NCBI GenBank assembly: GCA_016861105.1
Contig: BOKS01000004.1
Location: 186,001-250,000 of the forward strand
Direction: 5' to 3'
Source of the DNA: Betaproteobacteria bacterium
Lineage (GTDB): Bacteria; Pseudomonadota; Gammaproteobacteria; Burkholderiales; Casimicrobiaceae
Length of the DNA stretch: 64,000 bases
Of this stretch, positions 6,569-62,006 are shown piece by piece. Under the pieces are notes generated by a model, which had not been told where the DNA came from, searched no databases, and was given only the letters and a program-made list of their open reading frames with translations. Made by a program: the position numbers and the translations under genes. Each line of letters begins with the position of its first letter. The first letter of the stretch is position 1.

Positions 6569-6681
6569 CACGCGTCCCGGACATCCTCGGCGAGGCGATC
6601 GGCCTGGGGCCTCGATGGACGGCGTTTGCCGCCGCGCATAGACTGCACGCTCCTCGCGTCCCGGGAAGGAAGACCGTCGGC

Positions 6682-8442: not shown

Positions 8443-8507
8443 GGTGCGCCCGGCGGTGGCGGCCCCTGCGCCGGAGGGACCCTGGCGCGCCGGCAAGCGA
8501 AGCCTGA

Positions 8508-8756: not shown

Positions 8757-8780
8757 AGCGAGGCGCGGCGCCGCGGCTCG

Positions 8781-8803
8781 GGCGGCCCCGCGCCGGGGCC
8801 GTC
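8781..8803. terminator. Hairpin between convergent transcripts
   Basis: CGGCCCCG-CGC-CGGGGCCG is a perfect 8-bp stem with a 3-base loop, extended by two further pairs (one G-T). It lies between the gene remnant on the plus strand and the convergent gene at 8821-9288, where a bidirectional terminator would be expected. There is no T-run on either side. Confidence 0.45.
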
Positions 8804-8820
8804 CGCGCTGGCGAACGCGG

Positions 8821-9288: not shown

Positions 9289-9362
9289 CGTCGTCTCCTG
9301 TCAGTCGCGGCGCGGTTGCAGCCGCCACGCCCCCACGATGATCCCGCGGCGCGGGCGCACGC

Positions 9363-9376
9363 TTGAGCGGCGTCAA
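9363..9376. promoter_or_regulatory. Candidate FNR/ANR-type binding site
   Basis: TTGAGCGGCGTCAA keeps the outer bases TTGA-N6-TCAA of the FNR/ANR consensus. It lies upstream of the minus-strand gene that starts at 9288. A weak -10-like GATCAT (complement of 9338-9343) would put the site about 38 bases before the transcription start. The match is partial and the site is inferred. Confidence 0.35.
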
Positions 9377-9466
9377 CGCGCGCCGGCCGCGGCGCGGCGA
9401 CTTTGTAACGCGATGTGAGCGGCCGCGCGCCGCCGGGGCGCGCACTGCAAGAGGTGTGACGAAACG

Positions 9467-9913
9467 TTACCGTGCGGCTTCTCCCGCCCCGGCGCCGGGC
9501 AGGGCGTCGCCGAACCAGCGCCCCTGCACGTACGCGCCGGCGAACATGCCCGCCAGCGCGATGACGAGCGGCAGGTTGCCGCCGCCGGTGCCGGCGATCG
9601 CCGGACCGGGGCACACGCCGCACAACCCCCAGCCCACGCCGAAGACGGCGGCGCCGACGAGCGTGCGTGCGTTCATGGGCGCGGGGTGCTCGGCGAATGC
9701 GGGCGCGGCGAGCGGCTTGCGCAGCACGCGCCGGCCGAACTGGTAGGCGGCGAGCGCGACCCCGGTCGCCCCGCCGAGCACGAACAGCAGGCCGAAGTCC
9801 TCGTGGCGCAGGAACGACAGGATCACCTCCGGGTGCGTCATCGTCGCGAGCGACAGCCCGAACCCGAACAGCGTCCCCGACGCGAGCGCGATCGCGAAGG
9901 TGCGCGCGGCCAT
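9467..9913 (-). CDS. YeeE/YedE-family membrane protein, second of a pair (DUF6691-like)
   Basis: A 148-residue integral membrane protein with four or so hydrophobic segments. It contains GWGLCGVCPGPAIAGTG, the conserved cysteine-bearing loop of the YeeE/YedE family. Members of the family import thiosulfate or other reduced sulfur compounds, or move sulfur through membrane thiols. It lies two bases after the other half-size member. In many proteobacteria such half-size pairs together correspond to one full-length YeeE. The start is the ATG at 9913 just after the partner's stop. Confidence 0.8.
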   Translation of the reverse strand: MAARTFAIALASGTLFGFGLSLATMTHPEVILSFLRHEDFGLLFVLGGATGVALAAYQFGRRVLRKPLAAPAFAEHPAPMNARTLVGAAVFGVGWGLCGVCPGPAIAGTGGGNLPLVIALAGMFAGAYVQGRWFGDALPGAGAGEAAR

Positions 9914-9915
9914 CG

Positions 9916-10386
9916 TCACGCACCCCCGAGCGCGCGCACCGCGTGCGCGGTCAGCATCCCGGTGGCGAGGAACGCGAGGACGGCGAGCAGCGACTGCGGC
10001 TTCAGCAGCGCGAGCCCGCAGATCCCGTGGCCCGAAGTGCAGCCGTTCGCCAGCCGCGCGCCGAAGCCGGCGACGAAGCCGCCGAGCGCCAGCTGCCAGC
10101 CCGGCACGGCGGTGACGAAGCGCTCGCCGGCCAGCGCGACGAACAGCGCGCCGCCGAGGAGCATGCCGCCGGCGTAGACCAGCCGCCAGGCGCGGCTTCC
10201 GGTCAGCCGCGGCTGGCGGAAGTGCGGCAGCGACGACACGTACGACCACGTGCTGCTGAACACCGTGCTCGCGCCGCCGATCAGCCCGGTGACCAGGAAC
10301 AGGAGCGCCACCCCCACGCCGATGATCAGGCCGCCGGCGAGGTAGTGGGCGATGCCGAGGGGAAACAGCGAGTCGGGCAGGATCAT
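9916..10386 (-). CDS. YeeE/YedE-family membrane protein, first of a pair
   Basis: A 156-residue membrane protein with about five hydrophobic segments and the family motif ANGCTSGHGICGLALL carrying two conserved cysteines. It is the upstream half of a two-gene sulfur-compound transport unit with the gene at 9467-9913, separated by only two bases. Family knowledge: TsuA/PmpAB-type proteins pass thiosulfate or sulfide inward through conserved cysteines. The next gene upstream on the same strand starts at 10761 and is unrelated. Confidence 0.82.
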   Translation of the reverse strand: MILPDSLFPLGIAHYLAGGLIIGVGVALLFLVTGLIGGASTVFSSTWSYVSSLPHFRQPRLTGSRAWRLVYAGGMLLGGALFVALAGERFVTAVPGWQLALGGFVAGFGARLANGCTSGHGICGLALLKPQSLLAVLAFLATGMLTAHAVRALGGA

Positions 10387-37764: not shown

Positions 37765-40434
37765 ATGGAGACCCCCGGCGCCGTCGCGACGTTCGTGTTC
37801 ACGGACCTCGAGGGCAGCAGCCGCCTCTGGGAACGCGAGCCGGCGCGCATGCAGCTCGCGCTCGCCGCGCACGACCGGCTGGCGCGCGAGGCGGTCGAGG
37901 CGCGCGCCGGCCGCGTGCTCAAGTCCACCGGCGACGGGATGTGCGCGGTGTTCGACGATCCGCTGCACGCCGTCGAGGCCGCGGTCGCGTTCCAGAACGC
38001 GCTGGCCGACCCGGAGCGCACGGCGGGCCTCGAGCTGCGCGCGCGCTGCGGCGTCCACCTCGGCGTCGCGCAGCAGCGCGACAACGACTACTTCGGCAAC
38101 ACGCTCAACCGCGCGGCGCGCATCATGGGCGCCGCGCACGGCGGGCAGGTGCTGGTCTCGCAGCCCGTCGTCGACCTGGTGCGCGGCCGGCTGCCGGAGG
38201 CGATCGCGCTGCGCGACCTCGGCAGCGTGCGGCTGCGCGATCTCGCGCAGGCCGAGCGGCTCTACCAGCTGCTGCATCCCACGCTGCGCGCCGACTTCCC
38301 GGCGTTGCGCTCGCTCGAGGCGACGCCCAACAACCTGCCGCTGCAGGCGACGTCGTTCGTGGGGCGCGAGCGCGAGCTGCGCGAGGCGCGCGAGGCGCTC
38401 GCCCGCACGCGGCTGCTCACGCTGGTCGGTGCCGGCGGCATCGGCAAGACGCGGCTGTCGCTGCAACTCGCCGCCGAAGTGCTCGACGACTACCCGGACG
38501 GCGCGTGGTTCGTCGAGCTGGCGCCGATCGCCGACGAGCGCCTGGTCGTGCAGGCCGTGGCGACGACGCTCGGGATCAAGGAGCAGCCGGGCGTCGCGCC
38601 CGCGGACGCGGTGGCGCAGTGGGCAGCGGACCGCCGCGCGCTGCTGCTGCTGGACAACTGCGAGCACGTCCTCGACGCCTGCGCGACGCTCGTCGCGCAG
38701 CTGCTGCGCGGCGCCGCGGGCGTGCGCGTGCTCGCGTCGAGCCGCGAGCCGCTGCGCGTTCCCGGCGAGGCCACGTTCCCCGTCCCGGCGCTCGACGTCC
38801 CCGACGATGCGCGCGGCGAGGCCGCGGCCGCGTGCGCGGACTCGCCGGCGGTCCGGCTGTTCGCCGAGCGGGCCGCCGCGGTGCTGCCGGGCTTTCGCGT
38901 CGCGGCGGACAACGCGGGCACCGTCGCGCTCATCTGCCGCCACCTCGACGGGATTCCGCTGGCGATCGAGCTCGCCGCCGCGCGCATGCGCGCGCTGCCG
39001 GTCGACACGATCGCCGCGCGGCTCTCCGACCGCTTCCGCCTGCTGACCGGCGGCAGCCGCGCCGCGCTGCCGCGGCAGCAGACGCTGCGCGCGCTGATCG
39101 ACTGGAGCCACGACCTGCTGGACGAGCCGGAGCGCGCGCTGTTCCGCCGGTTGTCGGTGTTCGCCGGCGGCTGGACGCTCGAGAGCGCCGAGGCCGTGTG
39201 CGCGGGCGGCGAGGTCGCGCGCGACGACGTGGTCGAGCTGCTCGCGGGCCTCGTCGACAAGTCGCTGGTGGTCGCCGACCTGCGCAGCGCGCGCTACCGG
39301 CTGCTGGAGACGATCCGGCAGTACGCGCTCGAGAAGCTCGAGGCCTCGGGCGAGCGCACCGCCGTGCACGAGCGCTTCGTGGACCACTGGCTCGCGTTCG
39401 CGGAGGACCTGCAGCCGAAGCTGCACGGCGCGGCGCAGGGCGCGACGCTCGCGCGCATCGACGTCGAGCACGAGAACCTGCTGTCGGCGCTCGCCGCGTG
39501 CGCGGCGGCGAGCGGCGGCGGAACGAAGGGGCTGCGCCTGGTCACCGCGCTCAAGCCGTACTGGTTCAGCCGCGGCCAGCTGCGCCTCGCGAAGCGGGCG
39601 ATCCGCGAGGCGCTCGAAGCGCCGGGCGCGCAGGCGCGCGAGCGCAACCGCTCGACCGCGCTGTTCGGCCTGGGGCAGTACTGCACGTTCTCCGGCGAGT
39701 ACGACGAGGCCATCGGCTACCTCGAGGAGAGCCTCGCCATTGCGCGCGAGCTCGACGACCGCGATCTCGTCGCGGCGACGCTGCAGCCGCTCGGGTACGC
39801 GGAGTTCGGCCGCGGCCGTGCCGACGACGCCCGCCGCCACAGCGAGGAGGCGCTGGCGATCGCGCGCAGCGTCGGCCGGCTCGACCAGATCGCCTCGGCG
39901 CTCAATGCGGTCGCGCAGCTGCGGCGGGCCGCGGGCGACCTCGCCGGCGCCGAGCCGCTGTACGACGAGGTCGTCGCGGTGGCGCGGCGCCTGGGCGACC
40001 CCGAGCTCGTCGCCGTGGGCCTGCTCAACCTGACGATGGTCTACATCGGCCGCGGGGCGTACAGCGGCGCGCGCGTCGCGCTCTCGGAGATCATCGCGAT
40101 CGCCGGCGAGACCCGCTCGATGCCCGTGGGCCAGAGCGCGCTCGAGGTCGCGGCCGGGCTCGCGTCGGTGCTCGGCGAGCACGACCTCGCGCTGCGGCTG
40201 TACGGCGCCGTGGAAGCGAACACGTCGCTCACCGGCATCGTGCGCGACCCCGCCGACGACGCCTTCCTGCAGCCGCTGATCGCCGCGGCGCGCGCCGCGC
40301 TGGGCACCGAGCGCGCGCAAGAGGCCGAGCGCAGCGGGCGCGAGGCGGGCTACGACGACGCAATCGCGCAGGCGCGGACCTGGATCGCCGGCGCGCCCGC
40401 GACGCGCCGCGCCGCGCCGGCGGTCAGCGGTTGA
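37765..40434 (+). CDS. Class III cyclase fused to an NB-ARC/AAA-type ATPase and TPR repeats
   Basis: An 889-residue cytoplasmic signalling protein. Residues about 5-175 are a class III nucleotidyl cyclase with complete key residues: FVFTDLEGSSRLWE, STGDGMCAVF (metals, with the preceding lysine) and NTLNRAARIMG (Asn/Arg). Residues about 195-470 form a STAND-type ATPase with Walker A LVGAGGIGKTRLSLQ, Walker B LLLLDNCEHV, RVLASSREPLRVPGE and GIPLAIELAAAR. The rest is TPR-like. Such proteins respond to an unknown signal through the C-terminal repeats. Its end overlaps the convergent lipoprotein by 11 bases. Confidence 0.93.
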   Translation: METPGAVATFVFTDLEGSSRLWEREPARMQLALAAHDRLAREAVEARAGRVLKSTGDGMCAVFDDPLHAVEAAVAFQNALADPERTAGLELRARCGVHLGVAQQRDNDYFGNTLNRAARIMGAAHGGQVLVSQPVVDLVRGRLPEAIALRDLGSVRLRDLAQAERLYQLLHPTLRADFPALRSLEATPNNLPLQATSFVGRERELREAREALARTRLLTLVGAGGIGKTRLSLQLAAEVLDDYPDGAWFVELAPIADERLVVQAVATTLGIKEQPGVAPADAVAQWAADRRALLLLDNCEHVLDACATLVAQLLRGAAGVRVLASSREPLRVPGEATFPVPALDVPDDARGEAAAACADSPAVRLFAERAAAVLPGFRVAADNAGTVALICRHLDGIPLAIELAAARMRALPVDTIAARLSDRFRLLTGGSRAALPRQQTLRALIDWSHDLLDEPERALFRRLSVFAGGWTLESAEAVCAGGEVARDDVVELLAGLVDKSLVVADLRSARYRLLETIRQYALEKLEASGERTAVHERFVDHWLAFAEDLQPKLHGAAQGATLARIDVEHENLLSALAACAAASGGGTKGLRLVTALKPYWFSRGQLRLAKRAIREALEAPGAQARERNRSTALFGLGQYCTFSGEYDEAIGYLEESLAIARELDDRDLVAATLQPLGYAEFGRGRADDARRHSEEALAIARSVGRLDQIASALNAVAQLRRAAGDLAGAEPLYDEVVAVARRLGDPELVAVGLLNLTMVYIGRGAYSGARVALSEIIAIAGETRSMPVGQSALEVAAGLASVLGEHDLALRLYGAVEANTSLTGIVRDPADDAFLQPLIAAARAALGTERAQEAERSGREAGYDDAIAQARTWIAGAPATRRAAPAVSG

Positions 40435-40849
40435 ACACCCACGGGTCGACCGAGTCGACGCCGAGGAGGTCGATCCGGTAGGCGAAGTCCCCTTTCTCGC
40501 CGCTGTTCGTGCACTCCATCCGCCACCACGCCAGGCGATTGCGCTCGCAGCGGATCACTTCGCTGCCGCGCCCGTCGAAGACGATGCCGCGCTCCTCGAA
40601 CAGGAACGGGAACGCGTTCCACGTCATGTGGCGCGTCGCTTCCGCCCGCGGACCGTGGCGGTCGAACTCGACGCTGACGCTGTACGGTGCCCAGCCGGTC
40701 AGCGGCTCGACGAAGATCTCGCACGCGCCCGCCTTGCCGCAGTCCCTGGCGGGCTTGTAGAGGTCCGGCCTGTCGAGGCGCATGGGCGCCGTGTTGCAGC
40801 CTGCCAGTGCCAGGCAGGCGACGGCGATCGCAAGCATACCCTTCGGCAT
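40424..40849 (-). CDS. VFNR-tail lipoprotein, first of three paralogues
   Basis: A 141-residue lipoprotein with the lipobox LALAGC (Cys about 18). The mature part has four spaced cysteines (RDCGKAGACEIFVEP, VIRCERN, RMECTNS) and ends DSVDPWVFNR. The pattern and the tail recur in the two genes at 41055-41492 and 42164-42604, with a shared central W...RGI-F segment (here FEERGIVFDGRGSEVIRC). No known family is recognised. The fold is probably a small beta-sandwich fixed by two disulfides, at the outer membrane or cell surface. It is likely read through from, or separate from, the paralogue upstream, with a strong hairpin between them. Confidence 0.75.
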   Translation of the reverse strand: MPKGMLAIAVACLALAGCNTAPMRLDRPDLYKPARDCGKAGACEIFVEPLTGWAPYSVSVEFDRHGPRAEATRHMTWNAFPFLFEERGIVFDGRGSEVIRCERNRLAWWRMECTNSGEKGDFAYRIDLLGVDSVDPWVFNR

Positions 40850-40927
40850 GACGGCTCCTCGCGCGTTGGTGTCCGGAGTCGGAAGTTCGCTGCACAAAGG
40901 CGGCGAGAAGCGGCGCGCTGCGGTGTC

Positions 40928-40966
40928 GCGGCCCTCGCGGATGGTCCCGACATCCGCGAGGGCCGC
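40928..40966. terminator. Perfect 16-bp inverted repeat between two paralogous lipoprotein genes
   Basis: GCGGCCCTCGCGGATG is followed after a 7-base loop (GTCCCGA) by its exact complement. It lies 89 bases after the stop of the lipoprotein at 41055 and 79 bases before the ATG of the one at 40849. It may end the upstream transcript, or act on the leader of the downstream one. No T-run on either side. It has no coding role. Confidence 0.55.
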
Positions 40967-41054
40967 TTCGCGCAGCGCATCCGTTCCCGTCGCCTTCGTG
41001 CCGCCGGCCCGTCCACGATCGATCCATCCTTCAACCAACCCCCGACCCGGGACC

Positions 41055-41492
41055 CTAGCGATTGAACACGAACGGGTCGAGGAAGAGCACCTGGTGCTGC
41101 TGCGTGTCGAGCACGCGCACGTCGTACTTGAACTTGCCGCCGGTCGACCCCTCGCCGCCGTTGTTGGTGCACGTGCGCACCGGCCCGGATTGTCCGGGCG
41201 GGCAGTGGATGACGCCGCGGGCGGCCTGCTCGAAGAAGATGCCGGCGCCGTCCCAGCGGTAGCGCCCGCCGTGCCCGGCGAGCGTCCACTTGAGAACCGA
41301 CGTGCGCCCGCGGGACAGGTTCATGTTCTCGGCCACCATGCCGTTCAGCGGGTCGACGGGCACGTCGCACTCCGGCCGGTTCCGGCAGTCGGCGTCGGGA
41401 GGGCGCGTGGCGCTCTGGAACGGCACCTGCGTCGCGCAGGCGGTCGAAAACGACGCCGTGACGAGCAGCAGGGCCAGCGATCGTGCGTTCAT
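41055..41492 (-). CDS. VFNR-tail lipoprotein, second paralogue
   Basis: A 145-residue lipoprotein with lipobox FSTAC (Cys about 19). The mature part shows the shared pattern: DADCRNRPECDVPVDPLNG, a central YRWDGAGIFFEQAARGVIHC, RTCTNNGGEG, and the ending LFLDPFVFNR. The four cysteines align with those of the paralogues while the rest differs strongly, so the duplications are old. It is about 200 bases upstream of the first paralogue on the same strand and 200 bases from the divergent phasin-like gene. Confidence 0.75.
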   Translation of the reverse strand: MNARSLALLLVTASFSTACATQVPFQSATRPPDADCRNRPECDVPVDPLNGMVAENMNLSRGRTSVLKWTLAGHGGRYRWDGAGIFFEQAARGVIHCPPGQSGPVRTCTNNGGEGSTGGKFKYDVRVLDTQQHQVLFLDPFVFNR

Positions 41493-41658
41493 GCGCGGAC
41501 TCCTTCGCGTGGCGGCGGGCGCGGCGCCTGCCGGGGTGGGCATTCTTGCGCGGTGCACGACGGATGGAAAGCGCGGCGTGGGCCGGCCCGCACCCCGTGG
41601 TGCGTTGCACCGACGCGCTGTCGGACATCCGGCGATGGCACGGCCCGGCCGAATCCGC

Positions 41659-41676
41659 TATTGTGCACTGCACAAT
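41659..41676 (+). promoter_or_regulatory. Palindromic operator over a -10 box, possible PhaR-type site
   Basis: ATTGTGCACTGCACAAT (41660-41676) is a perfect palindrome around a central base. Its left arm overlaps a TATTGT -10-like box (41659-41664), 30 bases before the ATG at 41694, so a bound protein would block transcription. TGC-rich palindromes of this kind (TGCACTGCA core) recall PhaR operators in front of phasin genes. The identity of the regulator is inferred. Confidence 0.55.
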
Positions 41677-41693
41677 CACCGTGGGAAAGCCTC

Positions 41694-42080
41694 ATGCCGC
41701 GAACGCCACTCGCTTCCTCCGCACCGGATGCCGGCGGAACGCCGGTTGCACGCGCCCTCGGGCGCGAGGGCAACGGAACGAACGGCCCCGCCGGCGCGGC
41801 GTCGGGATGGGCGGCAGTCCGCGCATTCGCCGCCGAGATCGCGAGCCGCTCGGCGCACGCGCAGGTGGTGTGGGCCCATGCGTTGGGGGACGCCGCCCGG
41901 CGCGAGGCAACACGCCTCGCGCGGTCGTTCGCCGCCGTGCCGGGCGGCGCCGTGGGCGCGGCGAGTGCGCAGTCGCTGGCCGTGGGCATGCTCGACGCGT
42001 GGCTCGTGCTCGTGGACGCCTACGCGCGTGCGTGCGTGCGCAAGGCGAGCGGGCCGCTCGGCCCCGGCGCGGCACGCTGA
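41694..42080 (+). CDS. Possible phasin-like small protein
   Basis: A 128-residue protein with no signal peptide or membrane span. After a Pro/Ala/Gly-rich leader, residues about 38-120 are Ala-rich amphipathic helices (AVRAFAAEIASRSAHAQVVW and on to LVLVDAYARACVRK). That is the kind of fold and length of small phasins, which coat polyhydroxyalkanoate granules. The palindrome over its promoter resembles a PhaR site and supports the idea. The sequence itself shows no decisive phasin motif. It sits alone on the plus strand between two VFNR lipoprotein genes. Confidence 0.5.
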   Translation: MPRTPLASSAPDAGGTPVARALGREGNGTNGPAGAASGWAAVRAFAAEIASRSAHAQVVWAHALGDAARREATRLARSFAAVPGGAVGAASAQSLAVGMLDAWLVLVDAYARACVRKASGPLGPGAAR

Positions 42081-42163
42081 CGGCATTGCGGCGGCGCGCG
42101 CCCGCAGGCCGCGGATCGTCGCAAGGGCACCGCGAGGCGTGAGCGCGCAGCCCGCAGCCCGCG

Positions 42164-42604
42164 TCACCGGTTGAACACGAACGGATCGAATTGCAGGTTG
42201 ACGACGTAGGCCCACGGCCCGCCCGGTGCGGTCGCGTCGTTGTCGCACGTGAACTGGAAGGGCCCGTGCGCGCGGCAATTGCCGAATGGCGCCCCGGCGT
42301 CCGTGAACCTGATGCCGCGGTCGCCGAACTTGAACGGCCCGCGCGGATCGAGCTTCCAGCGGATGCGCGGGTACTTCCCCGCCGGCGTCCTCTCGGCGTC
42401 GATGTAGTCCGGGACCCAATCCCCGGTCGGCAGGATGTCGATCTCGCACTCGCCTTGCGCGTTCGCCTTGCACGGAAGCGACGGTCGCGGCTTGGCGTGC
42501 GCGATTCGCGGCCCGTCGCCGTCGGCGCGGTAGTCGTGGTGCGCACTGCATCCGGCCAGAAGGGCCGCCAGCAGCGCGCCCGTCGTCCAATGCTTCGATG
42601 CCAT
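42164..42604 (-). CDS. VFNR-tail lipoprotein, third paralogue
   Basis: A 146-residue lipoprotein with lipobox LLAGC (Cys about 19). The shared pattern is clear: SLPCKANAQGECEIDILPTG, a central FKFGDRGIRFTDAGAPFGNC, QFTCDNDATAPGG, and the ending NLQFDPFVFNR. It is separated from the other two copies by the plus-strand phasin-like gene. It is divergent from uup, with 160 bases between the starts. Confidence 0.75.
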   Translation of the reverse strand: MASKHWTTGALLAALLAGCSAHHDYRADGDGPRIAHAKPRPSLPCKANAQGECEIDILPTGDWVPDYIDAERTPAGKYPRIRWKLDPRGPFKFGDRGIRFTDAGAPFGNCRAHGPFQFTCDNDATAPGGPWAYVVNLQFDPFVFNR

Positions 42605-51917: not shown

Positions 51918-53849
51918 ATGGTCGCATCGCCCGGTCGCGAAAGCCCGCTCGCGCGGGAACTCGCGACGTGCAGGATCCTCGCGGTCGCGCTCGCCGCCGC
52001 CGGCGTCGTGGTCGTGCCGCCCGTTGCGGCGCAACCCGCTGCGACGATCGTGGCGTCGCGCATGCTGGGCGGCCACTGGGACGACGTCGTCGACGAGATC
52101 GCGCGCGCTGCGGACGGCAGGCTGTACGTTCGGGGCCGCCAGGCCTCGCCCTTCGCGCCCGACGTCGCGTCGTCGGCCACCGTCAACGCCGGCCAGTCGA
52201 GCGTCTTCGTCGCGCGCGTCGATCCCGCGACGCTCGCCGTCGACTGGCGCGTCCACGTCGGCCGCGACCGCACTTCGGTGCCGGAGGAGGACCACGCCCG
52301 ACGCGTCGAGGGCTTCGCGCTCGGTCCCGACGGCCACGCCTACGTCGCGGCCTACGCATCGTCGTCGCGCCCGCCGGCCGCGGGCGACACGTACACCGGC
52401 GACGGCGGCGCACCCGCCATCTTCCGCGTCGACCCGAACGGCACGGCCACGCTGCACGCGGGGCCGCTCGATCCCGCGATCCGCTCGGTGCGCGCGCTCG
52501 CCGTGGACGGGCACGGCCACGTCTACCTCACCGGGCGCGCCTCGCGGTCGCTGCCGACGAGCCCGGGGGCGATGGTGTCGGGCGCGCAGCTCGGCGCGCA
52601 CGAGACGGGCGCGTACCTGATGCGCATCGACGCCGCGACGCGCGCGGTCGGCGTCGCGACGTTCCTCGGCGTCCCGGGCAGCCGCGCCGCCACGCCGAAC
52701 GCGCAGTCGTGCCGTGCGCCGTTCGTTGACGCGCACACGGTGGCGCACGCGATCGCCGTCGCGCCGGACGGCACGATCTACCTCGCCGGCCAGGCCGAGC
52801 CGGGGGATCTCGCGGCCACGCCGGGCGCGGCCACGACGCCCGACGTCGCCTATCGCGACGCGTTCGTCATGCGCGTCGACGCCGCGGGGACGTCGCGGCT
52901 CTTCGTCGCGCGGTTCGGAGGCGGCGACAACGACCGGGCCACCGCGCTGCTGCTCGAGCCCGGAGGGAGCGCGCTCGTCGCCGGCAAGTGGCTCGACCGG
53001 GGCGGCGTCTGGCACGGACCGCGCGCGGGCTTCCAGACGACGATCGCACGCCAGTGGAGCGCCTCCAATCCGTGCGAGCCCACCGTGCCCACCGAGGCCG
53101 CGTTCCTGCTGCGCGTCGGTCCGGACGGCGCGCAGCTGGGCGGCGCGTCGCTGATCGGCAGCGTCGGTGGCGATCTCGCCGGCTGGATGAACCGCGAGGG
53201 CGCGATGCCGGTCCGCCTCGCCGGCGACGGCGCCGGGCACGTGCTGCTCGCCGGCACCACCGACTCCGGCCAGTCGCTGCCCACGCGTGCGCCGTTCGTG
53301 CCGGATGCCGACCTGTTCCAGGCATCGCCGCGGCCTGCCCACGCGTTCGTGATGAAGGTGCGCGCGAGCGACTTCGCGCTGGTCTACGCCTCGCGTTTCG
53401 GTCCGCGCGGCAGCGATGCGCACGGCCGCGGCGTCGCCGCCGACGGCGCGGGGAACGTGTACGTCGTCGGCACCGCGCCCAACGCGGAGGCGTTCCCGCT
53501 CGTGCACGCCGCGCCGTCCGGAAGACCGTTCCGCTTCGCCTCGACGTTCGTGACACGGCTGCACGAGGCAGCCGCCGACTTCGCGCTGGCCGCGGCGCCC
53601 GCCGCGGGCACGGGCGTGCAGTTGACCGCCACGCTCGCGGACCCGTACGCGACCGGCCACGTCGAGTTCCGCGACCGCGGCACGCCGCTCGCCACCGCCC
53701 CGCTGGTGGACGGAAAGGCGCGCGTCGCCGTGCCGCTCCCCGCGGGCATCCGCGTGCTCTCCGCAGTCGTCCGCGGGGCGGGCGCATGGGACGGCAACGC
53801 CACGGCGCCACTGGCCCTCGCCGTCGCGCAATCGGGGGCCGCGCCGTGA
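51918..53849 (+). CDS. Exported SBBP-type repeat protein with a C-terminal Ig-like domain (gene 1 of a four-gene cassette)
   Basis: A 643-residue protein. Residues about 17-39 form a signal peptide or anchor (ILAVALAAAGVVVVPPVAAQ). About 45-560 consists of repeated strands such as IARAADGRLYVRGRQASPFA, VFVARVDPATLAVDW, ALAVDGHGHVYLTGRA, VAADGAGNVYVVGTA, which is the SBBP/beta-propeller pattern. The last 80 residues (TGVQLTATLADPYATGHVEF) resemble an Ig-like Big_3-type domain. There is no catalytic motif. Its stop overlaps the GTG of the next gene (GTGA), so it is translationally coupled to the giant Ig-repeat protein. Confidence 0.8.
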   Translation: MVASPGRESPLARELATCRILAVALAAAGVVVVPPVAAQPAATIVASRMLGGHWDDVVDEIARAADGRLYVRGRQASPFAPDVASSATVNAGQSSVFVARVDPATLAVDWRVHVGRDRTSVPEEDHARRVEGFALGPDGHAYVAAYASSSRPPAAGDTYTGDGGAPAIFRVDPNGTATLHAGPLDPAIRSVRALAVDGHGHVYLTGRASRSLPTSPGAMVSGAQLGAHETGAYLMRIDAATRAVGVATFLGVPGSRAATPNAQSCRAPFVDAHTVAHAIAVAPDGTIYLAGQAEPGDLAATPGAATTPDVAYRDAFVMRVDAAGTSRLFVARFGGGDNDRATALLLEPGGSALVAGKWLDRGGVWHGPRAGFQTTIARQWSASNPCEPTVPTEAAFLLRVGPDGAQLGGASLIGSVGGDLAGWMNREGAMPVRLAGDGAGHVLLAGTTDSGQSLPTRAPFVPDADLFQASPRPAHAFVMKVRASDFALVYASRFGPRGSDAHGRGVAADGAGNVYVVGTAPNAEAFPLVHAAPSGRPFRFASTFVTRLHEAAADFALAAAPAAGTGVQLTATLADPYATGHVEFRDRGTPLATAPLVDGKARVAVPLPAGIRVLSAVVRGAGAWDGNATAPLALAVAQSGAAP

Positions 53850-56800
53850 CGCGGCGCGTCATCCCGCGGCTGCACGCGGCCTGCCTCGCGCTGGCGCTCG
53901 CCGCCGGCCCCGCCGCCGCCTCGTTCGTGTGGGTCGTCGACGCTGCCGCGCCGGCGCGCATCGAGGTCGCGAGCGGTGCTTCGCGCGCGCTCGCGCCGGG
54001 CCGCGTCGATGCGGTCGTGCCGCTGCGCGACGGCGGCGCCTGGATCCGCACGCCGGGCGAAGTGCTGCGGCTGGACGCGGCGCTCGAGGTCGCGGCGCGG
54101 GCGAGCGTCGCCGGCGCGGGGCCGCTGCTGCACGAGCCGGCATCGCGCAGGCTGTGGGTGGCGAGCGGCGCCGAGCTCCTGCGCTTCGACGAGGATCTCC
54201 GGCTGGAAGGCGTGGCCGCGCTGGACGGGGCGGTGCGGGGCCTCGCCGCGTCCGGGCCGGACGCGATCTGGATCGTCACCGATGCGACGCTGTCGCGCTT
54301 CGACCGCGCGGGGATGCCGCTGGACGCGGTCCCGCTCGCGACGCTCGGCATCGCGGGGCCGGTCGCAGGCGTGCTGGCCGACGCCGCGCGGGCGCGCGTG
54401 TGGATCGCCGCGGGGTCGGGCGACGCGGTCGCCGTGGATGCCGCCGGCCCGTTGCGCGCGACGCAGCAGCGCCTTCGCGCGCATCCGGACACGTGCGCCA
54501 TCGCCGTCGAGCCCGTCGCGGGGGCCCTGTACGGTGCGCTGCGCGACGCGTGGCTGCCGCTGCAGGAGGGCGGCTCCGCGGCGGCCGAGCGCGAAGGCGC
54601 GCCGGCAGGGCCCGGCTTCGAATCGACGGCCCTGCTGCGGCTCGCGCCGGGCGGTCCGGGTGCGCGAGGCGGGGCCGTCACCGTTCCCGTCGTCGTGCTG
54701 GGGTGCGGGATCGCGGGTGAGCCGTTGCGCGCTGCGGCGCAGCCGAGCCGGCTCGTGCTCGGGCCGACCATCGCCGCCGCGTCGTCGCGCTGGCGGTGGG
54801 ATGTCGCGCTGTGGTGCGGCAGTGCGAGCTGTGCGGACGCCGACGCGCTCCTCGCCACGGTCCGCGCCGATCTCGACGTCGCCGGGCATCGTGTCGGGGC
54901 GCCCGCCGCCCGGCAGGACGGTGCCTGGACCGTCGAAATCGCGATGCCGGACGCCGTCGCGGCGGCTGCGCAGGCGGTTCCCGCGACGCTGACGCTCGTC
55001 GACGCGTACGGCAACGCCGTCGCGGAACCGCTCGCGCTCGCAGCGGGAGCGGCGGGCGGCACGGTGCCGGTGCGCGCCGGGCCGAAGGGCACGCCGGTCG
55101 TCGCGATCACCAGCCCCGCCGCGAACGCCGTCTTCGTCGCGCCGGCCACCGTGCCGCTCGCGGCGTCGGCGTCGGTGAGCGGCGCCACGCTGGCGAAGGT
55201 CGAGTTCCTCCGCAACGGATCGCTGCTCGCGACGGACACGTCGTCGCCGTACACGTACGCGTGGACCGGCGTCGCCGCCGGGACGTACACGCTGACCGCG
55301 CGGGCGTGGGACAGCGCAGGGGGGAGCACGACGTCGGCGCCGGTTCCGGTCACGGTCAACGCGAACGCTCCGCCGGGCGTCGCCCTGACCGCGCCGGCGC
55401 CGGGAACGGTCCTCACCGCGCCGGCGACCATCGGCCTCGCGGCGCACGCGACGGATGCGGACGGCGGCGTCGCGAAGGTCGAGTTCTTCCGCGGCACGAC
55501 ACGCATCGCGACCGACACGACGGCGCCGTACGCGCACGCGTGGACGGGCGTCGGCGGCGGCACCTACTCGCTCACCGCGCGGGCGACCGACGACAAGGGC
55601 GCGGCGACGACGTCGGCCGCGGTCACGGTGGTGGTCAACCGCCCGCCGGCGACGGCGATCACGGCGCCGGCCGGCAATGCGACGCTCGTCGCGCCGCTGA
55701 ACCTCGCCGTCGCCGCGAGCGCCTCCGACGCGGACGGCAGCGTGGCGAAGGTCGAGTTCTTCCGCAACGGAACGCTCGCGGCCACCGACACGTCGTCGCC
55801 GTGGGGCTTCACGTGGAGCAACGTCCCGACGGGGACGCACACGCTCACCGCGAGGGCCACCGACAACCGCGGCGCCGCGACCACGTCCGCGCCGGTCACG
55901 TTCACCGTGAACGCCAACCTTCCCCCGGCCGTGACGCTGACCTCGCCGGCCGCCGGGGCGCGCTTCAGCTACCCCGCGGTCGTCCCGCTCGCCGCCACCG
56001 CGAGCGATGGCGACGGCAGCGTCGCGCGCGTCGAGTTCCACTACGACTACGGTGCGCTCGGCACCGACACCTCGAGTCCCTATGCGCTCGCGTGGAACAG
56101 TCCGTACGTCGGCACGTTCACGCTCACCGCGCGCGCGGTGGACAACAAGGGCGCCGCCGCGGTCTCGGCGCCCGTGTCGATCACGATCGCGGCCAACCAG
56201 CCGCCGGCGGTGACGGCAACAGGCACGCCCCCTGCCGGTGAAGTCGTGGCATCGGCGCCGCCCACGTTCGTCCTCGAGGCCGCGCCGGTGGACAGCGACG
56301 GAACGATCGTCGCGGTCCGCTTCCAGCGCTACGACGCGGCGAGCGATGCGTTCGCGACGTTCGCGACGGCCGTGCAGCCGCCTTATGTCGCCCAGTACGC
56401 GGCGCAGACGCTCGACGGCGAGTACTGGTTCCGGATCGAGGCGGTCGACAACGCGGGCGACGTCGGCCATGCCGACCTCTACTACATGGTCGTGGCCAAC
56501 CGCTCGCCGCAGGTGCGCCTGATCGAGCCGGGCGCGGAGGTCGAGTGGAGCGGATTCGTCGCGCCGGCCACCGTGGTGATCGTCGTCGACGCGACGGAGT
56601 TCGACCCTCCGCCCGATCGCATCGCCCGCGTCGAGGTGCTCGTCGACGGCCTGCCCGTCGGCGCCTTGGATGCGCCCAGCGGCACGCGTGGCGAGTACGT
56701 CCACGTCTGGCGCGACGTCCCGGCGGGAAGCTACGCGCTCCGCGTCCGCGCCGTCGACGCGTTCGGCGCCGTCGGCGAGTGGCAGCGCAACGTGCAGGTG

Positions 56801-59053
56801 CTGCACGCGGGACCGAACGCGTCCGTCGCGATCCTCCAGCCGGTGTCCGGCGAGGTCTACCGGGCCTCGGTGCCGCTGCAGGCCGTGGTCGAGCCCGGCG
56901 CGACGCCGGTGACCCGCGTCGACTACGTCGACACCCGCGGCCGCAGGCTGGCCACGTCGTCCGTGCCGCCGTACGCGGCCGCCTGGAACGCGCCTGCCCC
57001 GGGGCGCCACGCGATCACCGCCGTCGCGATCCAGGCGAACGGCATCGGCGTGTCGTCGCCGACGGTGCACGTCGACGTCGCGGACGCCGCGGCGAAGCGT
57101 CCGCCGCTGGTCGTGCTGACCGCACCGGCCGCGTCCGGCACCTACGCGGCGGGCGCGCCGCTGGCCGTGGAGGCCGACGCGCTCGCGGACGGCGCGGCAT
57201 CGATCGCGCGCGTCGACTTCTTCGCCAACGGCGCGCCGATCGGGACGGCCGCCGCCGAACCCTACCGCGTCGTGTGGAGCGACCCGCCCGCGGGTGCGGC
57301 GACGCTGACCGCCGTCGCCGTCGACTCCACGGCGCCGGCCGCCGGGTCGACGGCGACGTCCAGCCCGGTCGGCGTCACGCTGGCCGGCGCCAATCCGCGC
57401 CCGGTCGTGACGCTCACGGCGCCTGCGGCCGGGGCGAGCTTCGTCGCGCCGGCGTCGGTGGCGCTGGCCGCCGACGCCAGCGATGCGAACGGAAGCGTCG
57501 TGCGCGTGGAGTTCCGCGCCGACGGCGTCCTCGTGGGCACCGACACCTCGCCGCCGTTCGCCGTCGCCTGGCGCGACGTACCGGCCGGCACGTACGCCAT
57601 CACCGCCACGGCCGTCGACGACGGCGGCGCCGCGGCGACGTCGGATGCGCGCTCCGTCATGGTCGTGGCGAACGCGCCGCCGCAGGTCGCGCTGACCGCG
57701 CCGCTGCCCGGCCAGTCGTTCGCGCACGGTGCTCCCGTGACGCTCGCCGCGACGGCCGCCGATCCGGACGGCCCGATCGCGCGCGTCGAGTTCCTCGACG
57801 GCGAGACGCTGCTGCACGCCGACACGTCGGCACCGTACGCCTTCGAGTGGACCGGTGGCGCGGTCGGCGCGCACATGCTCGCGGCGCGGGCCTACGACGC
57901 CGCGGGGGCCGTGACCGTGACGCCCGGCACGTTGGTGACCATCACCTCCGACGCGGCGTCGATGGCGGCGCTCCTGCTGCCGCTCGACGGCCAGCGCTTC
58001 GTCACCGGACAGGCCGTCGACCTGGTCGCCGTGGCCGGCAACCCCGCCGGGGGCGTCGCACGCGTCGACTTCCTGGCCGGCGGCGTGGTGATCGGGTCGT
58101 CGGTGGCACCACCCTTCGCTCTCCGGTGGACGAACGTGCCGGGCGGAACGCACGCGCTCGCTGCGCGCGTGCACGACGCGAGCGGCACGGTGCGCACGTC
58201 GGCGCCGGCGACGATCCACGTGGCGCCCCTCGCGGCCGCGATCGCCCATCCGCCGGAGAACGCGTCGATCGCCGCCTCGTCCACGCTCGTCCACGGAACG
58301 TTCGCAGCGCCCGCGAACAGCGGGGTGCTGGTCAACGGCGTGCGCGCGCACGTGGACGGCGGCCGCTTCCTGGCCGAGGACGTCCCGCTGGTCGACGGAG
58401 CGAACACGCTGCGCGTCGTGGTCGTGACCGCGGACGGGCAGTCCGGCGAGGTGACCCGCAATGTCACCCGCTCGGGCAGCGCGGCGCTCGCCGTCCGGCT
58501 GGAGCCGGCCGCCGGGGTCGCGCCCCACACGGCCACGCTGCACGTCGACAAGCCGTCGGGCCTGACGATCGCGCAGGTCGCCTTCGAGGAGCTCGGCGCG
58601 GCGTCGCTCGACACCGCCGGCGCCGACCAGACCATCCTCGGCCGGTTGACGCTGGCCGCGCCGGGGGTCGCGACGCCGACGATCGTCCTGACCGATTCGA
58701 CAGGTACCGTCCACCGCGTGCCGGTGGGGATACTCGCCGCCAGCCGGGAGGTGCTGGACGCGATGCTGAGGGGGCTCTGGAGTTCGTACGCTGCGGCGCT
58801 GGTCGCCGGACGCGTCGACCTGGCGCTGGCGAGCCTGCCGCCGCTCGTCGCCGCCCGGTACCGGCCGATCCTCGAGCCGCTCGCGCCGCACTTCGCGCAG
58901 ATCGTGCCGACGTGGTCCGCGCCGCAGACGGGCCTGCTGGCCGACGACCTCGCCGAGTACGCGATCGGCCGGACGATCGACGGGCAGAAGCGCCTGTTCT
59001 TCGTCTACTTCGTCAAGGACGGACAGGGGCTGTGGCGACTGGACGCCCTGTGA
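53846..59053 (+). CDS. Giant exported protein with about eleven Ig-like repeats (gene 2 of the cassette)
   Basis: A 1735-residue protein. The GTG start overlaps the previous stop (GTGA) and gives a signal peptide (LHAACLALALAAGPAAASF, cleavage near residue 26). Residues about 30-400 look like a beta-propeller (GAWIRTPGEVLRLDAALEVA, RRLWVASGAELLRFDEDL). From about 416 to 1465 there are eleven Ig-like repeats of about 90-100 residues of the Big_7 type, with the pattern LTAPAAG-F...DGSVARVEFF-NG-TDTSSPYA-AW-VPAGTYTLTARATD. A further Ig-like unit and a unique C-terminal domain (about 1600-1735) with DLAEYAIGRTIDGQKRLFFV follow. No sorting signal is seen. Probably a cell-surface or secreted structural or adhesive protein. 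Confidence 0.85.
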   Translation: MTRRVIPRLHAACLALALAAGPAAASFVWVVDAAAPARIEVASGASRALAPGRVDAVVPLRDGGAWIRTPGEVLRLDAALEVAARASVAGAGPLLHEPASRRLWVASGAELLRFDEDLRLEGVAALDGAVRGLAASGPDAIWIVTDATLSRFDRAGMPLDAVPLATLGIAGPVAGVLADAARARVWIAAGSGDAVAVDAAGPLRATQQRLRAHPDTCAIAVEPVAGALYGALRDAWLPLQEGGSAAAEREGAPAGPGFESTALLRLAPGGPGARGGAVTVPVVVLGCGIAGEPLRAAAQPSRLVLGPTIAAASSRWRWDVALWCGSASCADADALLATVRADLDVAGHRVGAPAARQDGAWTVEIAMPDAVAAAAQAVPATLTLVDAYGNAVAEPLALAAGAAGGTVPVRAGPKGTPVVAITSPAANAVFVAPATVPLAASASVSGATLAKVEFLRNGSLLATDTSSPYTYAWTGVAAGTYTLTARAWDSAGGSTTSAPVPVTVNANAPPGVALTAPAPGTVLTAPATIGLAAHATDADGGVAKVEFFRGTTRIATDTTAPYAHAWTGVGGGTYSLTARATDDKGAATTSAAVTVVVNRPPATAITAPAGNATLVAPLNLAVAASASDADGSVAKVEFFRNGTLAATDTSSPWGFTWSNVPTGTHTLTARATDNRGAATTSAPVTFTVNANLPPAVTLTSPAAGARFSYPAVVPLAATASDGDGSVARVEFHYDYGALGTDTSSPYALAWNSPYVGTFTLTARAVDNKGAAAVSAPVSITIAANQPPAVTATGTPPAGEVVASAPPTFVLEAAPVDSDGTIVAVRFQRYDAASDAFATFATAVQPPYVAQYAAQTLDGEYWFRIEAVDNAGDVGHADLYYMVVANRSPQVRLIEPGAEVEWSGFVAPATVVIVVDATEFDPPPDRIARVEVLVDGLPVGALDAPSGTRGEYVHVWRDVPAGSYALRVRAVDAFGAVGEWQRNVQVLHAGPNASVAILQPVSGEVYRASVPLQAVVEPGATPVTRVDYVDTRGRRLATSSVPPYAAAWNAPAPGRHAITAVAIQANGIGVSSPTVHVDVADAAAKRPPLVVLTAPAASGTYAAGAPLAVEADALADGAASIARVDFFANGAPIGTAAAEPYRVVWSDPPAGAATLTAVAVDSTAPAAGSTATSSPVGVTLAGANPRPVVTLTAPAAGASFVAPASVALAADASDANGSVVRVEFRADGVLVGTDTSPPFAVAWRDVPAGTYAITATAVDDGGAAATSDARSVMVVANAPPQVALTAPLPGQSFAHGAPVTLAATAADPDGPIARVEFLDGETLLHADTSAPYAFEWTGGAVGAHMLAARAYDAAGAVTVTPGTLVTITSDAASMAALLLPLDGQRFVTGQAVDLVAVAGNPAGGVARVDFLAGGVVIGSSVAPPFALRWTNVPGGTHALAARVHDASGTVRTSAPATIHVAPLAAAIAHPPENASIAASSTLVHGTFAAPANSGVLVNGVRAHVDGGRFLAEDVPLVDGANTLRVVVVTADGQSGEVTRNVTRSGSAALAVRLEPAAGVAPHTATLHVDKPSGLTIAQVAFEELGAASLDTAGADQTILGRLTLAAPGVATPTIVLTDSTGTVHRVPVGILAASREVLDAMLRGLWSSYAAALVAGRVDLALASLPPLVAARYRPILEPLAPHFAQIVPTWSAPQTGLLADDLAEYAIGRTIDGQKRLFFVYFVKDGQGLWRLDAL
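55093..58240 (+). repeat. Array of about eleven Ig-like domain repeats
   Basis: Diverged units of about 270-310 bases, each encoding one Ig-like domain, run in tandem inside the giant gene. Units 1-4 and 9 are most alike (share VEFFRNG, TDTSSPY and LTARATDNKGAA blocks); units 5-8 are more divergent. DNA identity seems too low for frequent recombination between most units. Confidence 0.85.
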
Positions 59054-59757
59054 ACGCCGCCGCGCGCCGCGCGTGCCACGCAACGGCCGCCGCAGTGCGC
59101 CTCGCGGCGGTCGCCGCGCTCGCGCTGACGCCGGCCGCGTGCAGCGTGGAGCGAACCTACACGGCCGAGCCGATCGCCGCTCGCGTCGTCGACGCGGACA
59201 CGGGCGCACCGGTCGAGGGCGTGAACGTGGTGGCCGCCTGGCAGGCGAAGGGGGGTCTCGAAGGCGGCAACGTGATGGGCTACGTCATGGTGATGGAGGA
59301 CGTCACCGATGCCGACGGGGCGTTCTCGTTCCCCGGGTGGGGGCCGAAGAAGTGGCGCAACGGAGCGATCCGCGACGGAGCGCCTTTGCTGATCGTCTTC
59401 AAGCCGGGCTACGGCGTTCGCCTGCTCTGGGAGGAGAAGTACGGCGTGGAGTTCGCCACGCCGCACATGAGCTCGAGTTGGGACAAGCAGGTCATTGCGC
59501 TTAAGCGATTCGAAGGTTCCGCAGAGGACTATGCGTGGAACTTGTCGGGACTGCGAACCTTTCTTGATGGGCTCCTCTTGGAGGGGGGGTGTGCATGGCG
59601 CGGGGTACCGAACTTTCTGCGAACAGTCGATCGTCAGCATCGGGAGTTTGTCAGGCAACGGACGCGTGTCGCACTGGACAGCCTGCAGTCGATGCAAGAC
59701 AACGTCGACAAGTCATGCGGTTCCTTGCCCGATTTCGTCGAGGAGCACGCACGATGA
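59050..59757 (+). CDS. Lipoprotein with a carboxypeptidase-regulatory-like domain (gene 3 of the cassette)
   Basis: A 235-residue lipoprotein. The GTG start overlaps the previous stop (GTGA). The signal ends in LTPAACSVE (Cys about 31). Residues about 42-130 resemble a carboxypeptidase-regulatory-like beta-sandwich: AARVVDADTGAPVEGVNVVA, TDADGAFSFPGWGPKKWRNG, PLLIVFKPGYGVRL. The last third is helical and charged and ends SLPDFVEEHAR. From about 59490 the codon use turns AT-richer and unlike the neighbours. It ends by overlapping the next ATG (ATGA). Confidence 0.8.
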   Translation: MNAAARRACHATAAAVRLAAVAALALTPAACSVERTYTAEPIAARVVDADTGAPVEGVNVVAAWQAKGGLEGGNVMGYVMVMEDVTDADGAFSFPGWGPKKWRNGAIRDGAPLLIVFKPGYGVRLLWEEKYGVEFATPHMSSSWDKQVIALKRFEGSAEDYAWNLSGLRTFLDGLLLEGGCAWRGVPNFLRTVDRQHREFVRQRTRVALDSLQSMQDNVDKSCGSLPDFVEEHAR

Positions 59758-62006
59758 CAGCACGGACAGGAGTTGCCGGGATCGTTCTCGCGCTGGCCAC
59801 CAGCAGCGCCAATGCATATGAGATAGAGACACATGGAGAGCTCACTGAACGCGCATTCTTGCGGTCCGTAGTCGCATCCAGTTCCGTGAAGTGGGGCCGT
59901 CTCGGATTGCAGTACGGTCCGAACGACGACCGCCAGAAATTCCTGGACTCGAAGGGACAGTCCGCGACCGTATTGCAGCTTCTCCGCCGCGGCGCGGCCT
60001 ACGAAGACGACATCCTTCCCCTCCCGCCCCGCCCGCTGCACCACTTCTACGACCCCGCCACCGGCAAGGGGCTGTCGGTCGACACCGTCCCGCTGGAAGG
60101 CGTGCTGGCGCCGGACGTGCTGAACCTGATCGCGCTGGTCAACGCCACCAACCAGTCGTCGCCGGACTGGGTGCTCGATTCCCCGGTCGTGAACGAGTTC
60201 TCCCGCCCGCATCTCAGCGACGCGATGTACAAGGCCTACACGTCGCGTGACGCCGCGACGCGGCGCGCGATGACGGGGCGGATGTTCGAGATCGTCGGCC
60301 GCCTCGTGCATCACGTGCAGGACATGGCGCAGCCGCAGCACGTGCGCAACGACGCGCACCTGCACGACGAGCGGCTGGAGTCGGCGTGCCCGGCCCGGTG
60401 GCAGCCGTTCCTCGAGGATCCGCTGTGCCCGCTGTATCGCGCGCTGCGCGCGCCGAGCAGCTACGAGCTGTGGACCAAGCGGCTGCCCGCCGACGCGCTT
60501 CCGCTGTCGGGCTACGCCAACGTGTACGGCGACGACGGCGACGGGAGCTTCTATCGCGCGCGGCGTTTCTGGTCGAACGGCGGCAAGGGCCTCGCCGAGT
60601 TCACGAGCCGCAACTTCTTCAGCGCGGGCACGCTCTCGCGCACCCCACCGCTCCGCGGCGCGCCGCTCGACGTCAGTGTCGCCGATCTCTGCGCGGCCGC
60701 GCAGCCGCTGCCCTGCCCGGCCGTGCAAGCGGACCACGTCGTCCGCTTCTTCCCGTCGACGGTCGACGACGTCCTGCGCCCGCAGGCGGGTGGCGTGAAT
60801 CCGCATGCCGCCGCCGAGTCGATCTTCGACGCGGACTTCCGGCGCATCGTCGCAGGTGATCCGGTGCCCACGCTGAACCGCTTCACGTTCCAGCAGGCGC
60901 ACGCATACCTGCTTCCACGTGCCGTGGCCTACTCCGCGGGCCTGATCGACTACCTGTTCCGGGGGGCGATCGACGTGGAGCCGCCCGCTGAGGGCGTGTA
61001 CGGCATCGTCGACACCTCGCTCGACGGCTGCGACAACCCCTGCGGCTTCCGCAAGCTCAAGGTGAGGCTCCGCAACGTCACGCCCGGATCGGAGACGATG
61101 GGCCCCGGAGAGCTTCGCCTCGTCGCCAAGTACCGGCGCAACGGGTGCCACCGGCCCGATCTCGCGGGCCACTTCGGCGGTCCGCACTTCGCTGGGAACG
61201 CCTGCCGGCTGGAGGAGCGGGTCTCGGTCTCCGACCCGTTGCCGGTGGTGTCGTCCGTCGCCCGCGGGTTGTTCGGCGAGGAGCGGTCGTTCGCGTTCCC
61301 CGGCCTGGAACTGGTGCCCGCGGACGCGACCGATCTCCAGCTGCAGGTGGTGTTCCGCGGCCGCCTCGGCGAGGAGGCCGACGCCGTGGCGGTGAGCACG
61401 ATCGACGTCGCCGAGCCGAACTTCATCGCGGTCGCGAACAGCACCGACCACTACTTCGACGCGGACGCGAACGCCTACCGTCCGTCGACGGGCGGCATCC
61501 ATCCGTACCGGATGGAGTCGGTGAAGATCTGGTTTGCCGATCCCGCGGGCCAGGCGACGCCGATCGCCTCGCTCGCCGGGCTCGAGGCCGGCCAGCACGC
61601 GCAGCTCGCGGTCCTCGGCGACCGCAGCGGCGTGCGCTACTGGCTGCGCGACGTCACGCAGGGCGTCTCGTATCCGGACAAGGAAGGCGCGACGTTCCCG
61701 ATGCAGGAGTTCGTGCTCGACGAGAGCGGCGCCGCGCCGGTGTACCGGACCAACTGCCCGGTGGTGCTCGCGCGCGGCGTGTACCGCCAGTACGTCGAGA
61801 TGTACATCCGGGACGACCGCGGCACGCGGTTCGTGCCGTCGTCCGGTGCAGGGAACGAAGCCGCGAAGCGGCGCGCGGGCGCCAAGCTCGCCGCGATGAC
61901 CTGCCACGACTGGGTGGCGCCCGGGGACGGCGGCATCACGGACTTCTCGACGCTGACGCCGCAGTTCACCCCTCAGACCGCCAGCACCTGGGCCGTCCAG
62001 TTCTGA
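59754..62006 (+). CDS. Exported protein with a zinc phospholipase C/S1-P1 nuclease-like N-terminus (gene 4 of the cassette)
   Basis: A 750-residue protein. The signal peptide is residues 1-21 (MTARTGVAGIVLALATSSANA), and the mature protein would start YEIETHGELTERAF. About 22-215 resembles the zinc-dependent phospholipase C/S1-P1 nuclease fold: His27 near the mature N-terminus, and GRLVHHVQDMAQPQHVRNDA with His186, His187, Asp190 and His196, similar to the H...D..QPLH motif of that fold. Residues about 400-750 are beta-rich with disulfide-prone cysteines (CDNPCGFRKL, NGCHRPDLAG, NACRLEE). Coupling by ATGA to the lipoprotein suggests both act in one exported complex. Whether it is an active hydrolase is unproven. 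Confidence 0.7.
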   Translation: MTARTGVAGIVLALATSSANAYEIETHGELTERAFLRSVVASSSVKWGRLGLQYGPNDDRQKFLDSKGQSATVLQLLRRGAAYEDDILPLPPRPLHHFYDPATGKGLSVDTVPLEGVLAPDVLNLIALVNATNQSSPDWVLDSPVVNEFSRPHLSDAMYKAYTSRDAATRRAMTGRMFEIVGRLVHHVQDMAQPQHVRNDAHLHDERLESACPARWQPFLEDPLCPLYRALRAPSSYELWTKRLPADALPLSGYANVYGDDGDGSFYRARRFWSNGGKGLAEFTSRNFFSAGTLSRTPPLRGAPLDVSVADLCAAAQPLPCPAVQADHVVRFFPSTVDDVLRPQAGGVNPHAAAESIFDADFRRIVAGDPVPTLNRFTFQQAHAYLLPRAVAYSAGLIDYLFRGAIDVEPPAEGVYGIVDTSLDGCDNPCGFRKLKVRLRNVTPGSETMGPGELRLVAKYRRNGCHRPDLAGHFGGPHFAGNACRLEERVSVSDPLPVVSSVARGLFGEERSFAFPGLELVPADATDLQLQVVFRGRLGEEADAVAVSTIDVAEPNFIAVANSTDHYFDADANAYRPSTGGIHPYRMESVKIWFADPAGQATPIASLAGLEAGQHAQLAVLGDRSGVRYWLRDVTQGVSYPDKEGATFPMQEFVLDESGAAPVYRTNCPVVLARGVYRQYVEMYIRDDRGTRFVPSSGAGNEAAKRRAGAKLAAMTCHDWVAPGDGGITDFSTLTPQFTPQTASTWAVQF

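Follow-up and report, generated by a model that had tools for sequence, protein, structure and literature searches.

What do four overlapping genes for exported proteins, carried by a bacterium of the Casimicrobiaceae, accomplish together? In the window, by which we mean the whole 64,000-nucleotide stretch of DNA analysed, the genes follow an IMS-family polymerase and an FMN/FAD oxidoreductase and precede a cyclase-AAA protein. An earlier note had seen in them a secreted or surface machine. Our analysis leans towards an enzyme accompanied by a protective, membrane-bound protein, and we posit, tentatively and at slightly less than an even chance, that the operon encodes an exported phospholipase together with its keeper, an immunity partner.

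Layout of the locus and spread of the module

Table 1. Features of the four-gene locus, in window positions.
Feature	Position	Strand	Basis
Gene 1, exported SBBP protein of beta-propeller type, Ig-like domain at the C-terminus, 643 aa	51918..53849	+	sequence, Pfam
Gene 2, exported giant Ig-repeat protein, 1735 aa, 10 Big_7 stretches	53846..59053	+	sequence, Pfam
NTF2-like domain at the C-terminus of gene 2, its conserved mark	58745..59050	+	
Gene 3, CarboxypepD_reg-like protein of 235 aa, membrane-tethered and probably a lipoprotein; immunity candidate	59050..59757	+	
Gene 4, exported zinc phospholipase C-like enzyme (predicted), 750 aa	59754..62006	+	
GTGA overlap, gene 1/gene 2	53846..53849	+	sequence
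GTGA overlap, gene 2/gene 3	59050..59053	+	sequence
ATGA overlap, gene 3/gene 4	59754..59757	+	sequence
Gene 4 signal peptide, residues 1-21, ANA before Tyr22	59754..59816	+	sequence; model residue 22 aligned to 1ca1 chain residue 1
Gene 4 catalytic domain, about residues 22-404; H27, D85, H97, H186, D190, H196, H202, E238	59817..60965	+	
Gene 4 beta-sandwich domain, about residues 405-575, comparable to the alpha-toxin C-terminal domain	60966..61478	+	model comparison

The four reading frames and the three overlaps on which the earlier note relied are all present in the sequence (Table 1). Its conclusion that the products are made in a fixed order and ratio exceeds the sequence evidence, as an overlap of this kind permits coupling and sets no ratio. 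Among relatives, genes 3 and 4 share exactly 4 nt at 45 of the 67 such junctions, a count that includes truncated copies and a number of close relatives, and the overlap is therefore not regarded as a product of chance; at the junction of the gene 2 tail and gene 3, the same overlap occurs in 8 of 54. Signal peptides or lipoboxes had been claimed for all four proteins, and exported starts are plausible by eye, the lipobox of gene 3 (PAAC) being atypical at position -3. Of the domains anticipated for the HMM searches, Big_7 and SBBP were found; CarboxypepD_reg stayed below threshold in the window's gene 3, and gene 4 was left without a Pfam match. An NCBIfam scan of the four genes gave only an OmpL47-type domain above cut-off, inside the Ig repeats of gene 2. 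Three small proteins encoded side by side on the minus strand at window positions 40424-42604, two of which look like lipoproteins by eye, share the near-identical ends DPWVFNR, DPFVFNR and DPFVFNR.

Gene 1 is an optional partner of the cassette. Pfam recognises one SBBP repeat in it and a sub-threshold Big_3_5 match, while two of the three gene 1 relatives scanned carry DUF7948 along with SBBP, DUF7948 being confined to the relatives. A separate gene 1 on the same strand was found in 7 of the 37 loci whose sequence extends 2.5 kb or more ahead of the gene 2 frame; in reading this count, the match of L058 lies inside the gene 2 frame and that of L101 on the other strand, and L102 has a gene 1 but falls outside the 37. 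Gene 2 has the size given in the earlier note, and in place of "about eleven" Ig repeats Pfam gives ten Big_7 stretches plus other Ig-like matches. Its conserved part is the tail, not the Ig repeats. The structure check that had been suggested for this C-terminus points to an NTF2-like fold: the best Foldseek rows for the tail were Ig-like domains, a second comparison led to NTF2, and the tail was assigned to the NTF2/KSI fold.

Of 61 genomes searched, 17 gave a gene 4 match, one of them the window's own, and most of these with sufficient sequence have the same gene order. The module usually occupies a chromosomal site other than that of the window; in several near relatives it is flanked, by eye, by panB/panC-like genes on one side and an ABC transporter on the other. 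One scan of a species genome collection, with the best 80 of 174 relatives kept, yielded 78 loci. The 80 loci used here remained after 16 earlier loci had been dropped as duplicates and L033 and L035 retained; some belong to close relatives, and most were found using gene 4 as bait. By title, Pseudomonadota and Nitrospirota predominate among the carriers; on the tree, a single Myxococcota-labelled bin contributes two loci and an Acidobacteriota-labelled one contributes one. The labels of the metagenome bins holding L074 (Bordetella parapertussis), L099 (Klebsiella pneumoniae) and L103 (Thermomicrobiaceae) look wrong to us.

The gene 2 tail is present in 61 of the 80 loci, each time with a same-strand gene 4 match downstream of it. 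Of the 19 tail-less loci, 18 begin less than 2 kb from a contig edge, the contig breaking just upstream of gene 4 (for example, L039, L043, L069, L086, L095 and L097), perhaps due to the Ig repeats or to arrays. L112 alone has upstream sequence without a tail; its genes 3 and 4 (5733-9933) come after a large frame that by eye resembles a restriction enzyme subunit. A search of 64 genomes of the family (E<=1e-3) returned the tail in 25 and gene 4 in 27, adjoining on most contigs, with the tails of G079, G034 and G023 (E 1e-15 to 1e-19) in genomes where gene 4 went unmatched. Across the class, 185 genomes were sampled; tail, gene 3 and gene 4 were matched in the same nine, including the window's, and a tenth has a weak partial gene 4 match. 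This sample overlaps our alignments: at least G119 and G257, whose contigs are as long as those of L061 and L101, and probably G188, whose coordinates equal those of L066, had loci in them. L117, L119, L121 and L122 are on contigs outside those of the species-collection scan. G119 also holds what appears to be a decayed second module (C328, 40349-41305), in which a tail precedes a gene 3 interrupted by two stops and gene 4 is not matched. On plasmids, a single record was found, with a partial 27% match. When neighbouring frames of at least 120 aa were compared all against all, none of the 25 clusters shown was a further module-wide partner; they were mostly antisense or alternative frames of genes 1-4, surroundings shared by close relatives, and common families including ABC ATPases and short-chain dehydrogenases. 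The four-gene set proposed earlier is recovered in other genomes as genes 2-4, which stay together in order and are not scattered, with gene 1 joining at the frequency given above.

Gene 4 as a predicted two-domain zinc phospholipase C

The earlier note had considered gene 4 a possible zinc hydrolase, and the model agrees: it has the helical metal-binding fold of the zinc-dependent phospholipase C/P1 nuclease superfamily, and the conserved residues supply the His/Asp/Glu ligand set of that superfamily, including H-x3-D-x5-H. D85, H97, H186, D190, H196 and E238 are invariant in 64 of 64 sequences, though for D190 and H196 the selection itself contributes to this, since one of the two scan patterns for collecting gene 4 loci contained the D-x5-H part of the motif. 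This pattern is broken at Q193 in nine of the 64 rows, all of which retain both residues. H202 is conserved in 63 of 64 and H27 in 58 of 59 ungapped rows; H202 probably replaces the usual His four positions before the last Glu. In zinc phospholipases C, the amino group of the mature N-terminal residue is a metal ligand. Residue 22 of the gene 4 model aligns with chain residue 1 of 1ca1, and an AxA-like site precedes the column of Tyr22 in 52 of 56 sequences with a readable N-terminus.

Family models largely miss this enzyme. Pfam gave no match at E<=1 for gene 4 of the window, which stays under the cut-off of PF00882 (Zn_dep_PLPC), and this family was weakly matched by 6 of 51 gene 4 sequences (best E 0.0038); the Pfam, NCBIfam and PADLOC scans assigned gene 4 to no family. 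Searching solved structures with the single sequence produced a chance-level row only and a profile was needed, which led to phospholipase C with E238 aligned to its Glu. Among the structures listed, those closest to the model are two-domain phospholipases, beta-sandwich included, at 13-14% identity over aligned residues for the alpha-toxin type; the list consists of Foldseek's picks, and nuclease chains missing from it carry no weight. Foldseek alone separates poorly (E 3e-4 for alpha-toxin versus 4e-4 for an unrelated transglutaminase, TM-score <0.35), and the extra C-terminal region is of low confidence in the model.

The earlier wording left room for a nuclease. The H-x3-D-x5-H motif and the spacing of Tyr22 and H27 do resemble those of S1/P1 nucleases, but the last zinc ligand of these enzymes is an Asp, in H-x3-D, whereas gene 4 has Glu238 in 64 of 64 sequences. 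The two-domain phospholipases among the closest structures listed and the profile match with its aligned Glu likewise speak against an S1/P1-type enzyme, which we consider very unlikely. Phospholipase C fits better, and the model suggests that gene 4 may have phospholipase activity.

The slot before gene 4 and the multiplication of gene 3

A slot gene stands between the tail and gene 4 in 58 of 61 loci, the adjacency looked for in an immunity gene. It is gene 3 in 49 loci, a small membrane protein in eight and, in L068, a divergent frame that is gene 3-like by eye; in L041, L077 and L099 nothing recognisable is found in the slot. The eight, picked by eye and without a gene 3 profile match, are small proteins with 3-4 hydrophobic segments that fall into six groups (BLAST, E 1e-3) and overlap gene 4 by 4 nt in two cases. 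When the multi-pass label is traced on the gene 4 tree against 12 array rows and 3 empty-slot rows (41 rows left out), no fewer than four changes along branches with good support are required. CarboxypepD_reg is matched by 62 of 73 gene 3 sequences at E<=0.1, and DUF576 is not among the 19 Pfam families listed for these 73. By simple sequence rules, their N-termini are lipobox-like in 36, hydrophobic only in 32 and neither in 5. Free-standing immunity arrays have been described for known systems; in the class-wide sample of 185 genomes, orphan gene 3 arrays outside the module were not seen, with 22 of 23 gene 3 matches lying inside it.

Gene 3 is repeated in a minority of loci. L061 and L042 have clean tandems free of gene 4 pieces, L100 contains pieces of the tail as well, and in L054, L055, L089 and L101 truncated gene 4 copies stand between the gene 3 copies. 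Counting gene 3 from 170 aa upwards and gene 4 where the catalytic domain is whole, gene 3 outnumbers gene 4 in 15 of 55 loci and is outnumbered in none; five of the 15 (L040, L046, L093, L109, L113) have split or partial gene 4 frames and the identical repeats of L065 may stem from assembly, which leaves nine clean. In G167, a genome of one contig that is rated complete, the order is tail, gene 3, truncated gene 4, gene 3 and whole gene 4, with 57% identity between the gene 3 pair and 68% between the gene 4 pair. For computable pairs, many with dS near saturation, dN/dS is 0.12-0.50 for gene 3 and 0.17-0.36 for gene 4. Because the gene 4 values indicate constraint like that on gene 3, the truncated copies are not shown to be debris, and several have their own start and a signal-like N-terminus. 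In L040 (7694-8143) a truncated gene 4 copy ends in residues like the end of the gene 2 tail, and in L065 (1565-1855) a tail piece comes after a truncated copy, as if duplications had been bounded by the end of gene 2 and a point within gene 4.

Proposed role and comparison with known systems

A predicted exported hydrolase of membrane lipids that follows a membrane-bound protein made ahead of it, multiplied and replaceable by unrelated membrane proteins would be in keeping with an enzyme and its immunity protein. With a single copy each of genes 3 and 4, the window locus supports this only by membership, and the case for immunity is built on the relatives. We posit that gene 3 would be translated just ahead of gene 4 through the 4-nt overlap and that gene 4 would be exported by Sec. 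Removal of the signal peptide would expose Tyr22, whose amino group may complete the zinc cluster, and the catalytic domain and C-terminal beta-sandwich might then bind and split membrane phospholipids. Gene 3, elsewhere an unrelated small multi-pass membrane protein, would inhibit the enzyme in the envelope of the producer, while gene 2 may hold or present it, most likely via the conserved NTF2-like tail, with gene 1 as an optional propeller accessory. The likely use would be antagonism of neighbouring cells or lysis of their membranes.

The same genes could serve nutrient scavenging, with gene 4 as an ordinary secreted phospholipase C that frees phosphate and fatty acids from dead cells or vesicles, genes 1 and 2 capturing lipid particles at the surface and gene 3 anchoring the enzyme. 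The exported or surface type of the proteins, carriers such as Nitrotoga, Methylocaldum, Thiogranum and Ramlibacter, which we take to be environmental bacteria, and a patchy presence (27 of 64 family genomes) befitting an accessory trait are all compatible with this; it leaves unexplained, however, why gene 3 multiplies without whole gene 4 and why unrelated multi-pass proteins occupy the slot, and we judge it unlikely, if a serious contender. Lipase-specific foldases set a precedent for a dedicated helper of a secreted enzyme, and gene 3 might be a membrane-anchored folding or secretion helper of gene 4, with gene 2 as surface acceptor. Such a role would suit the close adjacency and 4-nt coupling, the membrane signals on most gene 3 proteins and the lack of free-standing arrays in our sample, but a helper should come one per enzyme and from a single family, against which stand the multiplied gene 3 copies, the six unrelated groups replacing it and the three loci with none; a helper thus seems quite improbable to us. 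Hardly any credence is given to the truncated gene 4 copies being donor cassettes that vary the expressed enzyme while gene 3 copies ride along: the copies do retain the N-terminal part and look constrained, yet several possess a start and a signal-like N-terminus of their own, arrays are confined to a minority of loci, and L061 and L042 are pure gene 3 tandems.

The enzyme with a protecting partner may, in a broader claim that we find possible but doubtful, represent a previously undescribed Gram-negative antagonism system. In it, a surface Ig fibre with an NTF2-like end would carry a secreted two-domain zinc phospholipase C, and an interchangeable slot membrane protein (lipoprotein arrays or unrelated multi-pass proteins) would protect the producer, across Pseudomonadota, Nitrospirota and a few Myxococcota- or Acidobacteriota-labelled bins. 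We found no description of such a system in the open-access literature searched. The analysis offers a likely chemistry and a testable partner relation for a widespread operon whose enzyme escapes the family models tried. If gene 3 does inhibit gene 4, a family of protein antidotes would come built in with two-domain zinc phospholipases C, and the slot would offer further families of inhibitors.

Among known proteins, gene 4 shares the two-domain build of alpha-toxin-type zinc phospholipases C; unlike them, it has 750 aa with the extra low-confidence C-terminal region and no Pfam match, shares its operon with genes for an Ig-repeat protein and for a membrane partner, and is carried mostly by Pseudomonadota and Nitrospirota by title. 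Genes 1 and 2 recall SBBP/DUF7948 propeller and Big_7 Ig-repeat proteins through their SBBP and Big_7 domains, respectively, although the conserved feature of gene 2 is its NTF2-like tail. Polymorphic toxin systems share tandem paralogous candidate immunity genes, termed polyimmunity loci, and unrelated families doing the same job (PMC3482391). Their toxin is the exchangeable C-terminus of a carrier (PMC3482391), whereas gene 4 is encoded on its own, begins with a signal-like N-terminus and is no exchangeable module of a carrier. The closest published arrangement among the papers compared is TilA-TslA of Staphylococcus aureus, in which the lipase toxin TslA, a phospholipase A, has small helical partners and leaves the cell by type VII secretion, and TilA is an immunity lipoprotein (PMC10730906). 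Gene 3 matches CarboxypepD_reg and not the DUF576 family of that lipoprotein, and our loci instead have a Sec-type signal and an Ig/NTF2 partner. For counterparts of the small helical proteins, the comparison covered neighbouring frames of at least 120 aa, and the 25 clusters shown included no further conserved neighbour. Both arrangements place an exported membrane-lipid hydrolase, predicted in our case, after one or several membrane lipoproteins of variable number (PMC10730906).
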